Origin: a virus
Direction: 5' to 3' (one strand)
Virus record (IMG/VR): IMGVR_UViG_3300027861_000076
Span: 1-38,810 of that record
DNA length: 38,810 nucleotides
Position 1 is the stretch's first letter. Each line of letters begins with the position of its first letter. The translations under genes were made by a program, and so were the position numbers. Below the pieces are notes generated by a model. The model did no database searches, had not been told where the DNA came from, and saw nothing but the letters and a program-made list of their open reading frames with translations. Below are positions 7,170 through 32,577 of the stretch, piece after piece.

Positions 7170-8867
7170 CTATGTAAGTTGCACGATGGACAGATAACTT
7201 TCAGTCGTTACATCATCGTCCTTGGCCCCGCCAGACGTGACAACCGCAATCGAAGCCGTATCTGAGGCGTCCATGTCAAGTACAGCAGCAAACGGCAAGT
7301 TAATTTGAGTAGAACTGTCAGCCATATTATTCGGGTTGCCCCGAAAATATAACGTCCTGTTGGATGTGACTAACCGAACGCCCATAGATGTAGATGTACC
7401 AGCTATTATTGAAATAACCCCGGAAAAAAGATATTTGCCTGTGGTCGGCGCAGTAAATGTAGGACTAGCCCAATCCCCGCCCACATCAGTTATTTCGGTA
7501 TCAAACACAATCGTATATACTGTATTATCACCAGTCACGTTGTTTAGTTGGGATGCCAGGGATGCTTGCACCAAAGCGTCACCGACGACGCCGCTTGCTG
7601 GTACAAGATCAAGAATGCCCTGCACGGCGTCTTTTTTGGATTTGTTGCTGTCGGTGGCGTCTGCAAATAATATTTCGTCGGCGGCAGTGATTACTGTGTC
7701 CGGCTTACCGTTCACAAAGGCGTCAAGCGTTGCCGGAGTGATTGATCGGGCTGTGTCTGTGCCAGCGTCCACTTCGGCCTGTGTAGCGAGTTCAACGATA
7801 CCTTCTGTTGTGGCTGTCGCTGTGTTGTAAGAACCTGCGCCATCGTCACCTGTGCGTGACCATGCAAAATAACCTTTATCGGCTGCGGTCCATGTTCCAT
7901 TGCTGTCAACGTGCGTGACGGTTAATTGTAGCCAGCCTGTGTTATCCGTAACGGCAGCGGTAATAGCAAAGGTTGCGAACGTGGCGGGTGTGCCACTTTT
8001 CTTGATCGTGATGTAACCCTTGTTCGTCGCAGTTGACGCGCCCCATACTGCAATGAAGTCAGAAACGTCGGGGTTGCCTGTGTCTGCACTGGTGGCGTCC
8101 ACAGCGATAGCCGTGACTGACGACACTGTTGCATTGTTAAACCGGAAGTCGCCTGTGCCGGGGTCGCCCATTGTGGTCGAGTTATCGAATGTGAATGGAA
8201 CGGCAACGGCACCGGCTGCGGCTTCTGCACTTACAACGTCGGCGGCTGTTAATACCGCATCGGCGTTCGTGCTGGTAACGTCATTCCCGGTCGAAACAAC
8301 GTCTGCATTGGTGCTTGTTACGTCATTGCCGGTAGATACTACATCGGCGGCAGTCAGAACAACGTCAGCGTTCGTCGTTACAACGTCGGCATTGGTGGAA
8401 ACGACATCAGCGGCGGTTGAAACAGCATCGGCAGCCGTCGAGGCTACAGCAGAAGCGGGGTCAAATCCGGTCGGTGACATAAGCTGGAAGTTCGTGCCGT
8501 CATAGACGATCCGCACCAGCGCACCGCTTTCAATGTCACCAGTGACCAAAGCCTGGTCGTGCGCCTTCAGGATGCTCTTTGCGCCCACACCGTCAACGTC
8601 GATTGTGACCCCGGAAGTGTTGGCAAAATTGGCCTTGAATGCAAACTCATCACCCTGGGCATATGCCGTCAGGGTGGCGTTTGCTGCCAACACATAAGCG
8701 TTCGCAGAGCCTGTTGAACTCAGGGAGCCGTTGCGGTCGCCAAACTCACGGGCGACCATAGCCTCCAGTTCACGCAGTTGGTTGTTCAGGGCATTGACCC
8801 GCATTCCTTCAGGGAAACGGGCAGTGTTGTTTGCCGCTGCAACGTCTAGGTCTTTGAACTCAGCCAT
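7170..8867 (-). CDS. Tail fibre protein with heptad repeats and C1q-like tip
   Basis: A 565-residue receptor-binding fibre. Residues 1-135 form the N-terminal attachment part. Residues 145-214 are ten consecutive 7-residue repeats (consensus xADVVST), typical of a trimeric stalk. A segment at 354-385 (TEGIVELATQAEVDAG followed by ARSITPATL) is a motif common in tail fibres. Residues about 445-565 (YTIVFDTEITD, FTAPTTGKYLFSGV) match a C1q/TNF-like jelly roll, a likely trimer-forming receptor-binding head. AAGGATAG precedes the ATG. It lies next to the ejection-protein genes, as expected for a podovirus fibre. Confidence 0.85.
   Translation of the reverse strand: MAEFKDLDVAAANNTARFPEGMRVNALNNQLRELEAMVAREFGDRNGSLSSTGSANAYVLAANATLTAYAQGDEFAFKANFANTSGVTIDVDGVGAKSILKAHDQALVTGDIESGALVRIVYDGTNFQLMSPTGFDPASAVASTAADAVSTAADVVSTNADVVTTNADVVLTAADVVSTGNDVTSTNADVVSTGNDVTSTNADAVLTAADVVSAEAAAGAVAVPFTFDNSTTMGDPGTGDFRFNNATVSSVTAIAVDATSADTGNPDVSDFIAVWGASTATNKGYITIKKSGTPATFATFAITAAVTDNTGWLQLTVTHVDSNGTWTAADKGYFAWSRTGDDGAGSYNTATATTEGIVELATQAEVDAGTDTARSITPATLDAFVNGKPDTVITAADEILFADATDSNKSKKDAVQGILDLVPASGVVGDALVQASLASQLNNVTGDNTVYTIVFDTEITDVGGDWASPTFTAPTTGKYLFSGVISIIAGTSTSMGVRLVTSNRTLYFRGNPNNMADSSTQINLPFAAVLDMDASDTASIAVVTSGGAKDDDVTTESYLSIVQLT
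8226..8435 (-). repeat. Ten tandem 21-bp units in the tail fibre gene
   Basis: The ten 7-residue repeats at fibre residues 145-214 correspond to ten 21-bp units. Units 5-8 also form two 42-bp super-repeats (AADVVST GNDVTST / NADVVST GNDVTST). Codon choice differs between units, so the array is old or under selection. Copy-number change would alter stalk length. Confidence 0.85.
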
Positions 8868-26467: not shown

Positions 26468-27715
26468 TTAGGCGGTTAGTTCCATTTGCACTTGATCTTC
26501 CGTAACGTCCTTCAGCGCCTCCTTACGCCGTTTTTTAATGTCATGATACCTTTTCCACGCATCACTTTTTGGTTGCCCTTGCCCTAAGCCCTTGCACCAA
26601 TAATCATTCCTTAACAACACCTTACACATTCTGCGCCATGATGGCGCCCAACATTTTGCCTCAAGTTCAGGCGGCGCTTCTTCAGGTATGACCTCGTATC
26701 CGCGCTGGTGCCAACCATGAATGAATTTCTTGAACCGGGTTGTGTAATGCTTCCTCGTTTTGGGGGGAAGGGTCTGCAAAAGCATGTTGCAAAAACTCCG
26801 CCACGTATGGCCTTCTGGCTTCGTCACCTTGTTGTATCCAGTCATGTTGCCGTTTTCTTTGATGTAAAGCGCACCTGAATTTGCACCGTTCACCCTTGAG
26901 ATTAACTTATACCACGTTTCCGGCTCAAGTATATGATACAACCACAAACCCCGCCTTTGGTCGTCACCAAATGGCTGGCACAGGCGTTGCTGACTTAACG
27001 GAACACCGGCCATCTGCATTTTGTCGTAAATGTTATTGTGCGGCTTGTCCGGGAACATTGCATGGTAACGCCAAATGTCTTCTGTAAGCCAGTCGTATAT
27101 TGGGTAAACATTATAAACCTGATCAACAATCTTTGTCGTCCAGCGCCATTCATTCAACATCAAGTCACGCTTTTCCCAGGTTGCAATCGCACAATACCGA
27201 TGAAGGCTTTCTTGCGCCCTGATCCCAATAAACCCGGCTGTCTTTTTGCCTTGGCCATACCACTTGCCGAACAGAACAATAAATTCCTCAAACTCCATTT
27301 CAGGCAAAGCAAATGGATAATGGTCAACACCCTTGGCATTAACTGGCTTTTTCCTTACCCAATCATCCTTGCTGTCCTCGTCCCAACAAACCCAATGCGG
27401 TTCGTAATTGGTCAATGCGTTGCGAAGCCTCATCGGAACGCAAATCCAGTGAAGATCAATATTATCCCGGTACAGGGCGAACATCTCTTTCGCGTGGTCA
27501 ATCGTATCCTTGTATTGCGCTTCCATGTCAATCAGCATAACGCCAACCTTCATATCCCGCTTCACAGCCTCTTCCATGACAAGATGGAACATAACACTGC
27601 TGTCTTTGCCGCCTGAAAACGCAATATATGCACGGTCAACGGCATCCAGGGTTTTGTTGATCCGATGCCTTGCAGCATCCAGAACACTCACATCATTGAA
27701 TTTCTTAACTCCCAC
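26468..27715 (-). CDS. PAPS reductase-family protein, IbrA-like
   Basis: A 415-residue protein from GTG 27715 (AGGGAG 7 bases upstream, inside the end of the previous gene). PP-loop SGGKDSS at residues 34-40 places it in the PAPS reductase/ATP pyrophosphatase family; the long C-terminal half with WRRMCKVLLRNDYWCKGLG looks like DUF3440, as in E. coli IbrA. It lacks an obvious sulfonucleotide-reductase active-site Cys in the usual end motif. Its partner gene just upstream is ParB-like (IbrB type). IbrA/IbrB in E. coli prophages regulate eib genes; the biochemical role is unknown. An earlier ATG start at 27799 lacks a good ribosome-binding site. Confidence 0.8.
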   Translation of the reverse strand: MGVKKFNDVSVLDAARHRINKTLDAVDRAYIAFSGGKDSSVMFHLVMEEAVKRDMKVGVMLIDMEAQYKDTIDHAKEMFALYRDNIDLHWICVPMRLRNALTNYEPHWVCWDEDSKDDWVRKKPVNAKGVDHYPFALPEMEFEEFIVLFGKWYGQGKKTAGFIGIRAQESLHRYCAIATWEKRDLMLNEWRWTTKIVDQVYNVYPIYDWLTEDIWRYHAMFPDKPHNNIYDKMQMAGVPLSQQRLCQPFGDDQRRGLWLYHILEPETWYKLISRVNGANSGALYIKENGNMTGYNKVTKPEGHTWRSFCNMLLQTLPPKTRKHYTTRFKKFIHGWHQRGYEVIPEEAPPELEAKCWAPSWRRMCKVLLRNDYWCKGLGQGQPKSDAWKRYHDIKKRRKEALKDVTEDQVQMELTA

Positions 27716-27728
27716 AGCATTGCTCCCT

Positions 27729-28871
27729 TTAATAAATTTCAGACTGTCTGGATGGAATAGCGTCAGACATTTCGACAGCCGGAAGATTGTTCTCAACAAG
27801 CCACTTATTCAGATACTTCAAGGCCATCTCGTTAGCATCTTCCTGTTGGCCCTCTGTCAACAACCCGAAACCGCCACGGAACTCTGATGGTATTCCTTCA
27901 GAATAGCACAAAGCAGCCTGGCCAAGCCAGGCAATTCTATTCATCGCAGTATTTGTGAGATAATGCTCACATGAGCGTTTCCACTCACCAGTGACGCCAG
28001 ACAATCCAGCCTCAAACCGGGTTAAGTCAGCCAGAAAATCACGGTAGACCGCCTTGCAATCATCCTTTGTCATCCCGGATGGTGGCTTTGATGAATAAAA
28101 TCCGGCCTTGTTGCACTCCCATTTGTCAAATGTATGGAATATGCGGTCTTTGTCTCCAGTGTTTACCGTTCTGGACAATTCAGCCTCATCATATCCAGTT
28201 ATGTCGTCTGTCAACTCTTCAAAATCATCTTCAGTAATTGCACCCTCGACATCCCATGATTTTGAAAACTCCTGGTCACTGAAAATATCAGTAAGACCTG
28301 AAATTTGGCATAGACGCAAAATCTCGTCCTGCTCCATGCCAAGCTCCCGCCCTATTCTGGTGTCGGTCCAGTTGCGCTTTTTTAACTCAATGACAATATC
28401 AGACATGCTTTCAATCGCATGCTTGCCCCTTGCCCGGTTGTGACGGATAGTAGACGCCATCCGGTCGCTGCGGCCTTCATGAGACGGCCTGATCTTAACT
28501 ACCGGCAAATACCCCAAAACCCTTGACTGGATGTCAGGGCATTCCTTCCCAACCCGGTGACGATGAAACCCGTCGATAACCTCAACAGTTCCGTCATCCT
28601 GCGGCCAGGAAACAATCGGCTGAGTATATCCATCGTTTGATATTGATTTCCGCAACAATTCCATTTCGGGCGGCGCAACGCTGTTTGGGTTGTAGTCATT
28701 AGCAACAACCATATCGTTTTTCATCCAGAACACACAATCAACAGGCTCCGACGAAAACGGGCTGTATTCCCCAAGAGACGCCCTGATTTCATTTATAGCG
28801 TCAATCCTTTCCGGCAACTCCATCCCGGAAAGCGCTTTAAAAATACCCGAACACTCATCAACTATTGACAT
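27729..28871 (-). CDS. ParB-like protein, IbrB-like
   Basis: I start at 28871 (MSIVDECSG) because AGGGAGAG lies 6 bases before it; a start at 28907 gives 12 more residues. The 380-residue product has a ParB/sulfiredoxin-like N-terminal domain (DGFHRHR at about 100-106, with QPIVSWPQDDGTVEVIDGF leading into it) and a helix-turn-helix (WTDTRIGRELGMEQDEILR, about 168-186). A C-terminal domain of about 170 residues is unassigned. It sits directly before the PAPS reductase-like gene, 13 bp apart. The pair matches IbrB/IbrA. No centromere-like repeats or ParA gene were found, so partition is unlikely. Confidence 0.8.
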   Translation of the reverse strand: MSIVDECSGIFKALSGMELPERIDAINEIRASLGEYSPFSSEPVDCVFWMKNDMVVANDYNPNSVAPPEMELLRKSISNDGYTQPIVSWPQDDGTVEVIDGFHRHRVGKECPDIQSRVLGYLPVVKIRPSHEGRSDRMASTIRHNRARGKHAIESMSDIVIELKKRNWTDTRIGRELGMEQDEILRLCQISGLTDIFSDQEFSKSWDVEGAITEDDFEELTDDITGYDEAELSRTVNTGDKDRIFHTFDKWECNKAGFYSSKPPSGMTKDDCKAVYRDFLADLTRFEAGLSGVTGEWKRSCEHYLTNTAMNRIAWLGQAALCYSEGIPSEFRGGFGLLTEGQQEDANEMALKYLNKWLVENNLPAVEMSDAIPSRQSEIY

Positions 28872-28884
28872 TTTTCTCTCCCTG

Positions 28885-29049
28885 TTAAGATCGTGCAATG
28901 TTGCCATATGCGTCACTCCTTGTCAAGCGCTGCTCGAGGTTTTTTATTTTTTCCAAAGCAGAGGCAAGCATCCTCTTGGTGCTGGCATGGCTCTTCTTCT
29001 CCAGTTTTAACTGCAATTCAGCGGCTTTAGCAACGGGGTTTGATTTCAT
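28885..29049 (-). CDS. Small coiled-coil protein, 54 aa
   Basis: An intact 54-residue frame (MKSNPVAKAAELQLKLEKK, then a second helix to NIARS at TAA 28885). Its ATG overlaps the upstream TGA (ATGA), and the IbrB-like start follows 13 bases after its stop, so it fills the gap exactly. Two amphipathic helices are rich in Lys and Leu. The family is unknown; it is too short for a length filter of 60 residues. Confidence 0.6.
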   Translation of the reverse strand: MKSNPVAKAAELQLKLEKKSHASTKRMLASALEKIKNLEQRLTRSDAYGNIARS

Positions 29050-29686: not shown

Positions 29687-30264
29687 CGTCTTACCGCCCC
29701 GCTTGCGTATGATGCTGATATTGTCTGCCCAAATATCGAAAGGTCAACAAAATCATAGAGGTCTTCAAATATTTCCGTTACTGGAATTTTCTCTACATCA
29801 TGCTTTTTGAAATATGAAATTGCAATTTTCTTTGGGATGCCAATTTTCTCAGCTTGCCGCGCATTTATTTTAATTTCCTTTAGTTGCCTATTATGCCGTT
29901 TTTGCATTTCAGTTTTACGGTCAAAATAGATTTCATCGCCTGCTGTTCTATACATCCATGAAACATTCACATTCGCCTTTTCCATATTTTTCAGGCAGGC
30001 GAACCGATCAATACCCCTATTGTGTCGAGCATGAGTTCTGTTGCATTTCGGCATCAATGTTTGTATAGCAAATTTCTCAGCCGATAATGCAGCATCTTTC
30101 GACTTGTGAATTGTTACCTTGACGCAACTAACGAACGGAAACCAATTTGCCTGTTTGTGGGCAAGAAACCGATTTTGTGAATGTATTGAAACTCCGACAT
30201 ATAGCAAAACACCACAAGACGAATAATGCTCATAAGTTTCATAAGGCTGATAAAATTCAGTCAT
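29683..30264 (-). CDS. GIY-YIG family endonuclease
   Basis: A 193-residue protein. Near the N-terminus are a GVLLYVG pair (residues 18-24, the GIY/YIG strands), Arg32, His36, Glu63 (SAEKF) and Asn75 (KCN), which match the catalytic set of GIY-YIG nucleases. The C-terminal part has a basic helical region and an IGIPKKIAISY helix that could be a DNA-binding module. The coding sequence is visibly AT-richer than its neighbours, suggesting recent entry. ATGA overlap with the upstream gene shows it is nonetheless in register with the operon. Likely a free-standing homing endonuclease. Confidence 0.75.
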   Translation of the reverse strand: MTEFYQPYETYEHYSSCGVLLYVGVSIHSQNRFLAHKQANWFPFVSCVKVTIHKSKDAALSAEKFAIQTLMPKCNRTHARHNRGIDRFACLKNMEKANVNVSWMYRTAGDEIYFDRKTEMQKRHNRQLKEIKINARQAEKIGIPKKIAISYFKKHDVEKIPVTEIFEDLYDFVDLSIFGQTISASYASGAVRR

Positions 30265-30701
30265 CGCCTCAATGCTCCGCTTGCCAGTGCAGACAGCTTT
30301 GCCTGCATCTCCGGGTTTGTTTCAGTGTCTTCAACGGGCTTTTCTGGTCGCCCGCTGTCTGTGCCACTCATCCACCGCTGTTTTTGTTCTGCAATAATCG
30401 CCAATAATTCAGCGGGTTTTGGGAACCACTTGCAGGTCTTTGCCGCTGAAGCAAGGCCACGCTGCAACAGGTGGCGCTGTGTTCCTGCCAAAGCCGCAGC
30501 ATAGACTTCATAAAACGCCTCACGCTCAAATGGCGCAAGGTCACGAACCGCCTCGGGGAACAGGACCAACAAACCCGCTAGTGATTTCAGGATTTCCTCC
30601 TCCGTCGCTGGCTTCACTGTTTCCGCCGTCAGCACCGCCTTTTCTGGCAATGATGTTATTGATTGCGGATAAATTGGCTGAGAGATTAGATCGTTGCCCA
30701 T
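30261..30701 (-). CDS. Probable helicase loader or replication accessory protein, 146 aa
   Basis: From ATG 30701 (AAAGGAAA upstream) the protein is 146 residues: a variable N-terminus, then helices with PEAVRDLAPFEREAFYEVYA and the segment TCKWFPKPAELLAII. The KWFPxPAEL pattern is typical of phage proteins next to initiator genes, usually seen as P-like or DnaC-like loaders that bring host DnaB to the origin. It overlaps the initiator gene by 161 bp in another frame. It lacks an ATPase motif. Confidence 0.65.
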   Translation of the reverse strand: MGNDLISQPIYPQSITSLPEKAVLTAETVKPATEEEILKSLAGLLVLFPEAVRDLAPFEREAFYEVYAAALAGTQRHLLQRGLASAAKTCKWFPKPAELLAIIAEQKQRWMSGTDSGRPEKPVEDTETNPEMQAKLSALASGALRR

Positions 30702-31458
30702 TGGGATTTCCTTTCTTGTTCGTGTAATTACCCTCAATAATCTTAGTCAGGTTCGCAGGCTTCAGCACCCAATCAAAACTTGCAGACCACTTGGTTTCCC
30801 TACCCGCCAGAAAGTCACTGGCCTGTATTCGCTCGCAACACCGTCGCCATTGCTCAATATCGCCTTCGAAGGTGTCTGCAAAGCGTTTGTTGATATTCCT
30901 GCACCTTGTCGGGTTTATGGACTTGATCCTTGGCAAATCCACAACAGTTTCATGCCAGACATCAACGAACCGCTGCGGGGCATCAATCCCCCCTTGGGGG
31001 TTAGGGGGTTTTTCTTTATTACCTTCATTACCTTTATTAACCTTAGTTCTAGTTTGTCCCGCCTCTGTCCCGTTGGTGTCCCGTTGGTGTCCCGGTTCTG
31101 CGTCATGTGGTGTCCCGGTTTCAATATGACCGTTCTGATATTGCCCGTAGTTACAAATAGTTATCAGCGTTCCTGCTGTCCCTGTTTGTGTCCCGATCAT
31201 GGCCGCTTTTTCGAGCCGTTTTAGAAAATTGTTGACCTTGTTTTTGTTCCAGCCCCACGCTTGGGCCATAAAACGCAAGGAATGGACGACTTGCCCGACC
31301 TCAAGTTCAAAGATTTCGTTACCCATTCTGGTGTGGTGTTCGCGGTATGCGGCCTCTGAGATTAGCCACTCCCACGCCAGCAATTCGCAATATATTTTGG
31401 GTTGTTTGAAGACCGGATTGGACATCCAGCCTCTATGCATTTTGTAGTATCCACGCAT
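30541..31458 (-). CDS. Phage replication initiator (O-like) with embedded origin
   Basis: A 305-residue initiator. Residues 1-110 (GYYKMHRGWMSNPVF, FMAQAWGWNKNKVNNFLKRL) are the N-terminal winged-helix domain of phage replication proteins. Residues 88-148 are encoded by the iteron and AT-rich array and are low-complexity (RDTNGTEAGQTRT, KGNEGNKEK). Residues 150-246 end with WVLKPANLTKIIEGNYTN, a family-typical C-terminus. The last 53 residues overlap the next gene in another frame and look like an added tail. A perfect-looking promoter lies at 31551-31579 and hairpins can block its ribosome-binding site. It probably recruits host replication proteins at the origin. Confidence 0.82.
   Translation of the reverse strand: MRGYYKMHRGWMSNPVFKQPKIYCELLAWEWLISEAAYREHHTRMGNEIFELEVGQVVHSLRFMAQAWGWNKNKVNNFLKRLEKAAMIGTQTGTAGTLITICNYGQYQNGHIETGTPHDAEPGHQRDTNGTEAGQTRTKVNKGNEGNKEKPPNPQGGIDAPQRFVDVWHETVVDLPRIKSINPTRCRNINKRFADTFEGDIEQWRRCCERIQASDFLAGRETKWSASFDWVLKPANLTKIIEGNYTNKKGNPNGQRSNLSANLSAINNIIARKGGADGGNSEASDGGGNPEITSGFVGPVPRGGS
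30988..31013 (+). terminator. G-run stem with T tract, rightward, beside the origin
   Basis: On the + strand six C (30988-30993) are followed by GGGGG (30996-31000) and GGGGG (31004-31008), then TTTTTCTTTATT. A C5/G5 stem with an 8-10 base loop plus T run would terminate transcription coming from the left into the origin. It is inside the initiator gene on the antisense strand; alternatively the G-runs are just low-complexity coding sequence. Confidence 0.35.
31013..31195. repeat. Candidate replication origin: iterons plus AT-rich repeats
   Basis: TGTCCCG occurs on the + strand at 31055, 31066, 31077 and 31088 (exactly 11 bp apart), then 31111, 31189, with TGTCCCT at 31177. On the minus strand these are 11-base units starting CGGGACA (two exact: CGGGACACCAA). 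Immediately beside them lies an AT-rich stretch (31014-31046) built of three 9-10 base repeats (minus strand AAGGTTAATA, AAGGTAATG, AAGGTAATA). An 11-bp period is not a multiple of 3, so codons alone do not explain it. Lambda carries its origin in the O gene in the same way. Confidence 0.72.
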
Positions 31459-31463
31459 GTTAT

Positions 31464-31504
31464 ATCATCCTTTGTTGCGGAAGGGATGATGCGGGACAAA
31501 GGAT
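31464..31504 (-). promoter_or_regulatory. Hairpins able to mask the initiator ribosome-binding site
   Basis: In the mRNA, ATCCTTTGT (31504-31496) can pair with ACAAAGGAT (31475-31467), a 9-bp stem whose 3' arm holds the AAAGGA ribosome-binding site. Alternatively ATCATCC (31490-31484) pairs with GGATGAT (31470-31464), overlapping the same site. Both structures exclude each other and both block translation start at 31458. Confidence 0.5.
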
Positions 31505-31530: not shown

Positions 31531-31550
31531 CGCTGTCCCTTCCGCTGCTG

Positions 31551-31579
31551 ATTATAGCGAGTGGGTTCGCCACAATCAA
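31551..31579 (-). promoter_or_regulatory. Promoter of the replication operon
   Basis: Minus strand TTGATT (31579-31574), 17-base spacer, TATAAT (31556-31551, perfect -10). It lies in the 125-bp gap between the methylase-like gene and the initiator gene and gives an 80-90-base leader. Confidence 0.78.
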
Positions 31580-31583
31580 CAAT

Positions 31584-32174
31584 TTATATTCCCCATTGGT
31601 TAGCCATCGCATCAGCAATGCCCTGATAAGTTATTGACCGCAACATGCCGCGATATTCTGACGGCGGTAGACTATGTATCCGGCCTTCGCGACCTTCCAC
31701 GATGCCCGTCGGCTCTAACGGCGGCAGGTTCTTTAGCCACAACCCCGTTGCCTTTGTCTCACCATGCCCGAACATCCACGGCTGGACTATCTGGGTCTGT
31801 TCGACGCCAATCAATTCCTTGGCGTAGCGGTGCATTATAGGGTTTTCGACACAGACACGATCTGCCGGGGAATTGAGCATCGCCTTGAAGAAGTCAGCAC
31901 CACGTACCATGTCAGCCCACCTGTGGGCATCAGGGCCATTCTTAGCTGCACCGCCTTTATAAAGCCACCTGACCCCCGAATTGCAAAGGTAAGTGCATGG
32001 TGGGTGCGCGATGATTAAGTCCCAATCCTTGTGGATAATGTCCATCACATCGCCTTGATAGTGATGCTCAAATTTATCTGACGGCAGGATGTCACATGAT
32101 ATAGCAACATGCCCCCGCTTCAGGAACGCATCGCGCACGACGCCGGAGAACTCACAGGCTACCAGCACTCTCAT
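31584..32174 (-). CDS. DNA methylase-like protein (HPPC motif), 196 aa
   Basis: From ATG 32174, one base after the upstream stop, with GGAATATAAC before it. The 196-residue protein has a Rossmann-type start (MRVLVACEFSGVVRDAF, GHVAISCDILP), then IIAHPPCTYLCNSG (residues 54-67; Cys60 in the PPC position of cytosine methylases), CVENPIMH and a C-terminal ITYQGIADAMANQWG. Members are usually annotated as DNA cytosine methyltransferases or methylases in phages. No target-recognition domain is visible, so activity and target are unknown. Confidence 0.7.
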   Translation of the reverse strand: MRVLVACEFSGVVRDAFLKRGHVAISCDILPSDKFEHHYQGDVMDIIHKDWDLIIAHPPCTYLCNSGVRWLYKGGAAKNGPDAHRWADMVRGADFFKAMLNSPADRVCVENPIMHRYAKELIGVEQTQIVQPWMFGHGETKATGLWLKNLPPLEPTGIVEGREGRIHSLPPSEYRGMLRSITYQGIADAMANQWGI

Positions 32175-32175
32175 G

Positions 32176-32577
32176 TTATATTCCAATCACATTCTCAAGA
32201 GGGATGCCAGCCTTATGCGCGAACTTTGCCCTGGCATTGAAGCCGTCAAGCGTGGCCCTGTCGGCTGTGACAAGCCGTTGTATTTTTGCCACAGTCAGGC
32301 TGATAGGCTTATCGTCTGCAATCATCCTGTCGATGCGGTTAATAGCATGCAGAACGCTTGTGTGGTCCCTTTCAAGGGCTTTGCCGACCTGTGTGCTGGA
32401 ATACCCAAGATGCTCTGTAAGCACCCACATAGCGGCGTGGCGGGCGTTGACGACCTTCCTGCGGCGAGACTTGCCAAGCAACAATGCGCGGTTCATTCCT
32501 GTCGCCTCATAAGTGGCGTTCAGGACTTTGTTTGTGATTTCGTCTGGCAGTGTCTTTGACCAGTGATTAGTCGGCAT
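32176..32577 (-). CDS. Stand-alone DnaA domain IV (DnaA C-terminal) protein, 133 aa
   Basis: Residues 44-83 (NARHAAMWVLTEHLGYSSTQ then GKALERDHTSVLHAINRI) match the DnaA domain IV signature, with the conserved D-H-T-S-V helix. No AAA+ module is present, so it can bind DNA but not oligomerise with ATP like DnaA. A C-terminal helix of about 50 residues is extra. It could bind DnaA boxes, block host DnaA, or regulate the phage. AGGGAGTTGAAAG precedes the ATG. Overlaps the HNH gene by 11 bp. Confidence 0.85.
   Translation of the reverse strand: MPTNHWSKTLPDEITNKVLNATYEATGMNRALLLGKSRRRKVVNARHAAMWVLTEHLGYSSTQVGKALERDHTSVLHAINRIDRMIADDKPISLTVAKIQRLVTADRATLDGFNARAKFAHKAGIPLENVIGI

Follow-up and report, generated by a model that had tools for sequence, protein, structure and literature searches.

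A phased iteron array inside a phage initiator gene, partly written in wing codons, is a probable replication origin

Does a cluster of short direct repeats inside a phage initiator gene mark the place where replication of that phage begins? The question is raised by a 38,810-base virus record (IMGVR_UViG_3300027861_000076), the whole of which is called the window below and for which a preliminary description had proposed an iteron-type origin within the initiator gene. Our analyses support this proposal, and we estimate a probability of about 0.87 that the array is a theta-replication origin embedded in the phage's own initiator gene. The repeats are regularly phased, are selected as DNA, co-vary with the predicted recognition helix of the encoded protein and adjoin an AT-rich stretch; from this anatomy, the co-variation and precedent, we infer that replication most likely starts at the array. 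Over a hundred related phages have the same layout, and sequence comparison shows that the repeated word and the part of the protein that presumably reads it change together.

The array lies in a minus-strand gene (30541–31458) that encodes a DnaD-like/O-like initiator of 305 amino acids with homologues in phages and proviruses. The heptamer TGTCCCG occurs on the plus strand at 31055, 31066, 31077, 31088, 31111 and 31189, and a single variant, TGTCCCT, at 31177; all seven positions had been given correctly to the base. In the coding direction the word reads CGGGACA, at gene positions 264, 342, 365, 376, 387 and 398, and AGGGACA, at 276. Five minus-strand copies of CGGGACA encode the linker of the protein (31055–31061, 31066–31072, 31077–31083, 31088–31094 and 31111–31117). 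The other two minus-strand copies encode wing residues, CGGGACA at 31189–31195 specifying Gly-Thr in codons 89–90 and AGGGACA at 31177–31183 specifying Gly-Thr in codons 93–94. From low to high coordinate, the copies follow one another in steps of 11, 11, 11, 23, 66 and 12 bp, the three 11-bp steps falling between 31055 and 31088 as previously noticed. Offsets and frames of the linker copies relative to an anchor codon are 33/0, 56/2, 67/1, 78/0 and 89/2, and the period thus crosses the reading frame, as had been claimed, with all three frames occupied. No other 185-nt stretch of the window holds as many copies of a single 6-mer (7) or 7-mer (6), and in 20 Markov genomes of window length the copy number of a 7-mer never exceeded three. 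When synonymous codons were shuffled with the protein unchanged, none of 20,000 shuffles yielded seven copies of any hexamer in the wing and linker. The second-densest repeat cluster of the window (8211–8395) contains AACGTC five times and ACAACGT four times in 185 nt.

Profile searches identified the protein as a replication factor, with PHROG matches to a DnaD-like helicase loader (2.5e-23) and to an O-like replication initiation protein (4.4e-22); the DnaD-like profile, PHROG 2514, was also matched by 53 of 53 homologues. We modelled the protein with AlphaFold2 from an alignment of the 53 homologues, leaving out rows from annotated records. The model has a mean pLDDT of 78, with high values at about residues 31–110 and 161–240, and contains a winged helix-turn-helix composed of a helix at 61–68, a recognition helix at 72–84 (31207–31245, minus strand) and wing strands at 88–92 and 97–101. 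The predicted wing hairpin, codons 88–101 (31156–31197, minus strand), includes two iterons. The linker, at about 111–157, was modelled with low confidence and is followed by a predicted helical C-terminal domain (codons 160–241; 30736–30981, minus strand) that is spanned by the O-like and DnaD-like PHROG matches. The preliminary description had explained the low complexity of the encoded segment by the constraint of DNA sites, which agrees with the five linker copies but is limited to them, because the other two of the seven sit in the folded wing of the model. Among structural matches of the N-terminal domain were 4pt7 and 4pql (Z 7.8 each), which were equalled or exceeded by CRP-type winged helix-turn-helix proteins with Z up to 9.3, CAP being the best match at that score.

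Other replication-related candidates in the window were also considered. The gene at 30261–30737 was rejected as a helicase loader, as its one match, to an unknown PHROG, was weak and tblastn gave none in phages, and DnaA boxes were rejected, with five TTWTNCACA sites in the window versus 3.9 expected, one of them perfect (TTATCCACA, at 32030). Two genes upstream of the initiator, a stand-alone DnaA domain IV protein is encoded at 32176–32577 on the minus strand (Bac_DnaA_C, 4.2e-17); tblastn found 28 matches to short proteins of this kind among the fetched loci, often near the initiator. At 26468–28916 on the minus strand, a PAPS-reductase-like open reading frame lies beside a ParB-like one, as judged by eye from their translations.

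We scanned phages, plasmids, genomes and viral contigs and retained 173 non-redundant homologues of the initiator, anchoring their alignment at the conserved Tyr codon of the motif ITICNY. Under a strict definition, an array had four or more copies of the same hexamer, of which one or more fell in the wing and two or more in the linker; 144 of the 173 carried such an array, and the other 29 for the most part were AT-rich or lacked an exact wing copy. The 144 genes use 52 different gene-private hexamers, including GGGACA, GAGACA, GACGCA, GATACA, GCGACA, GGACAG, AACCCA and ACATCA. A GGGAC-type word is found in about 41 of these 144 relatives, and the repeat unit, which had been regarded as new, is hence not unique to the window; Sulfitobacter phage pCB2047-A, a cultured relative, has eight copies of the word seen in the window. 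Whatever the word, its copies occupy the same grid, at about −57, −46, −34 and −23 relative to the Tyr codon and then at +21, +33, +45, +56, +67, +78 and +89. Linker steps measure 11 bp (310 cases) or 12 bp (102), the wing-to-linker gap is most often 66 bp, and wing and linker copies together fit best to a common period of 11.2 bp with a mean coherence of 0.92. The sole break in the grid is the site of the invariant NY..Y codons. Iteron density reached 31.7 per kb on one strand of this stretch, compared with 0.2 per kb elsewhere or on the opposite strand. Related initiators that kept the protein sequence and lost the 11-bp phasing had been named as evidence that would speak against an origin; we found the phasing retained in 144 of the 173 homologues.

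Could the repeats be a mere by-product of the protein, whose linker and wing might favour Gly-Thr, Glu-Thr or Asp-Thr motifs? The wing copies do encode GT, ET, DT or DA dipeptides in frame. However, the linker copies are spread almost equally over the three frames (254, 252 and 215 copies), with all three in use in 123 of 166 genes, and therefore one DNA word gives different peptides (GT, GQ and RD). This frame use already contradicts a protein-level origin of the repeats. Moreover, 131 of 166 genes repeat their linker word in their own wing codons, compared with 22 expected when words were exchanged between genes (maximum 39 in 20,000 permutations). Synonymous shuffling preserved part of this signal, leaving 53 of 166 matches (maximum 64 in 100), but the observed values lay above every shuffle, and a smaller first set behaved alike (70 of 83, versus 13.6 by permutation and 28 by synonymous shuffling). 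Codon choice in the window argues in the same direction: in the initiator gene, each of the four GT pairs coded by GGGACA is an iteron, while the other long open reading frames of the window most often encode GT as GGCACA. Given the wing matches, the equal frame use and the phasing kept across homologues, the earlier claim of DNA-level selection holds, and we regard a protein by-product as extremely improbable. Functionless slippage or recent tandem duplication of an 11-bp unit is just as hard to credit. Two adjacent units of the window are indeed identical over 11 bp (CCCGTTGGTGT), but only the 7-bp core is common to most copies. Such a history is also at odds with the constancy of the positions in 144 diverged genes that use 52 different words, and with the way in which the words track the recognition helix.

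The tracking became apparent when we compared protein columns with iteron differences in a partial Mantel analysis that removed overall protein distance; its permutations treat taxa as exchangeable after this distance correction. The five top columns were 93, 94, 72, 77 and 73, and none of their values was reached in 500 permutations. Columns 93 and 94 rank high trivially, because an iteron encodes these residues. Columns 72, 77 and 73, by contrast, form the start of the predicted recognition helix. Among unique helix–iteron combinations that fit a YGNNACA-like core, base 4 was G in 31 of 33 cases with Lys72, C in 12 of 13 with Glu72 and C in three of four with Asp72, and at the same base Arg76 occurred mostly with C and Gln76 mostly with T. 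Close pairs of genes with equal residues 72, 76 and 77 had the same iteron in 63 of 72 cases, and those with unequal residues had different iterons in 81 of 114; for pairs below 40% identity, 97 of 165 with equal residues shared the iteron, versus 318 of 6,100 with unequal ones. These helix and pair counts are descriptive, given the interdependence of the pairs and the simple rule used to align the core. Since the iteron is best tracked by residues 72, 73 and 77 together with the wing residues that it encodes, the initiator almost certainly reads the repeats of its own gene, as far as can be judged from sequence co-variation. In CAP, the base-contacting residues are 180, 181 and 185, spaced i, i+1 and i+5; residues 72, 73 and 77 have the same spacing, and the likeness is one of spacing alone.

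Past the array, the run TTTATTACCTTCATTACCTTTATTAACCTTA lies at about 31014–31046, where the preliminary description had placed an AT-rich stretch. It belongs to a 70–80% AT region with 9-bp repeats (31010–31049, minus strand), a candidate DNA unwinding element. The family shows the same arrangement: over 126 genes, the AT fraction peaks at 0.67 right after the last iteron, versus 0.44 for the loci. Beyond the AT-rich stretch of the window is a GC element, C5-TAA-C5-AA-G6 on the coding strand (30988–31008, minus strand), at which a terminator-like hairpin was detected on the plus strand. Six relatives whose iterons differ from that of the window (L044, L071, L097, L100, L328 and L350) have a closely similar element, and its general form in the window and these six is C5–6, a short spacer, C5–6, A or AA, and G5–6. 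One may speculate that this geometry allows a hairpin or an intramolecular C-G-C triplex.

At the corresponding place, perfect hairpins are enriched in the family. A search by stem alone returned mostly tetraloops, namely TAAC, TAAA, TGAC, TAGC and TATC, closed by C-G. Past the AT-rich stretch, hairpins of the form C(T[AGT]N[CA])G reach a density of 3.2 per kb, compared with 0.04 per kb elsewhere, a difference of about 70-fold, and they are present in 44 of 144 loci (L348, L030, L034, L057, L225, L067 and 38 others), mostly 28–80 nt after the last iteron. Their tetraloop is conserved, and their stems are private and fully complementary; the pair statistics arise partly by construction, because the inner six pairs were selected as paired, and the outer pairs, which lie outside this selection, also co-vary. 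No Rfam family matched in the window, and among eight relatives Rfam matched only int-alpA in L225 and a sub-threshold entry in L082, neither of them at the hairpin. A covariance model of the hairpin (R1) had no credible match in the window, and the C5-TAA-C5-AA-G6 element therefore takes the place of the hairpin there.

These features are consistent with the following order of events. The winged helix-turn-helix of the initiator, with its recognition helix starting at residue 72, would bind CGGGACA, the 7-bp iteron. The seven copies, which share a strand and a helical face and keep a pitch of about 11 bp through the wing codons, would permit a cooperative line-up of initiators, with one winged helix-turn-helix per about 11 bp. 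The assembly would melt the adjacent AT-rich stretch at 31010–31049, and the C-terminal domain would be expected to recruit a helicase or its loader. GC skew, a check that had been suggested, changes sign near 34.5 kb and does not turn at the array; it follows gene orientation and was rejected as an origin marker.

The same binding might instead serve an autoregulatory operator or a partition-type site, given that co-variation speaks for recognition and is silent on what recognition leads to. Two near-copies of the iteron do occur in the intergenic stretch that precedes the initiator gene, in opposite orientations (31492–31498, minus strand; 31534–31539, plus strand), adjoining inverted repeats and a promoter-like match at 31579–31551, and could form an autoregulatory site in this phage only. 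In the family, however, upstream copies are at about background (six in 126 genes), and they were rejected as a family-wide operator. The start codon is more than 250 bp upstream of the array, which runs into an AT-rich stretch and a hairpin or GC element, an origin-like arrangement, and the protein matches replication initiator families. We therefore consider an operator or partition-type site improbable and retain the reading of the array as a replication origin.

An origin of this design can be read from the gene, as the conserved NY codon locates the iterons on a fixed grid around it, and most phage origins are unmapped. The more than 50 natural iteron words with their paired recognition helices also constitute a data set for predicting origin specificity and phage incompatibility, and they are suited to tests of co-evolution between a binding site in coding sequence and the domain encoded by that site. 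Tentatively, and with somewhat more doubt than conviction, we propose a self-encoding origin whose site lies in the wing codons of its reader, combined with a readable protein–DNA code and, after the unwinding element, a single-strand hairpin module that has private stems and a loop of the type C-TNN(C/A)-G and would be recognised by a conserved replication factor. Because the site lies in wing codons, a change of specificity would under this proposal demand concerted changes of recognition helix, wing and linker.

Origins within initiator genes are an established kind, known from lambda O, SPP1 gene 38, lactococcal phages and pSK41. What is new here is the placement of iterons in the codons of a folded wing, the readable recognition-helix code and, beyond the AT-rich stretch, a conserved hairpin or GC element. 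Keyword searches of open-access papers returned no report of wing-codon iterons, of a helix code for such origins or of the hairpin; earlier notice is possible.

The lambda O gene, to which the array had been likened, also carries its iterons just after the DNA-binding domain, and these likewise cross reading frames (0, 2, 2, 1). In ori-lambda the iterons are followed by an AT-rich neighbour and an inverted repeat, the order that is also found in the family. The origin-in-gene layout is thus alike, whereas the proteins have no detectable homology in the DNA-binding domain: the N-domain profile did not match lambda O even with all filters off, and lambda iterons are 18 bp long, are spaced by 20–24 bp and are absent from the folded domain. 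In SPP1, oriL lies in gene 38, where gp38 binds direct repeats beside an AT-rich unwinding element (PMC6316719), a layout like that of the window, likened here by description; SPP1 has a second origin, oriR. Origins have also been placed inside the initiator genes of TP901-1 (ORF13) and Tuc2009 (ORF16) (PMC8965321) and, from the lack of trans complementation, of 80alpha (ORF20) (PMC5499656). These three resemble the window in placing an established or proposed origin within the gene for a DnaD-like or replisome-organizer protein; homology was rejected, as the N-domain profile did not match the TP901-1 and Tuc2009 Rep proteins or ORF20 of 80alpha and the grid is absent from them.

In pSK41-type RepA_N plasmids, a winged helix-turn-helix N-domain binds boxes located midway along the gene that encodes it, the origin encodes the linker and the proteins have DnaD-like domains (PMC5703833). 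Their N-domain structures are the 4pt7 and 4pql matches mentioned above. Unlike these plasmids, the window has 7-bp iterons, an 11-bp pitch and wing-codon copies, and none of the 53 homologues matched PF06970 (RepA_N) at E 0.01. Orf46 of Staphylococcus phage PVL is a homologue (N-domain profile E 1.6e-38), with a BLAST match that covers only the N-terminal 131 residues. Its word, ACATCAA, differs from that of the window and occupies seven places of the same grid, one of them in the wing at −33; no experimental origin is known for it. Given that homology to the DNA-binding domains of lambda O, TP901-1, Tuc2009 and 80alpha is not detectable, that RepA_N is not matched and that PVL orf46 is homologous and has the same layout, we place the array of the window as a variant among in-gene origins.
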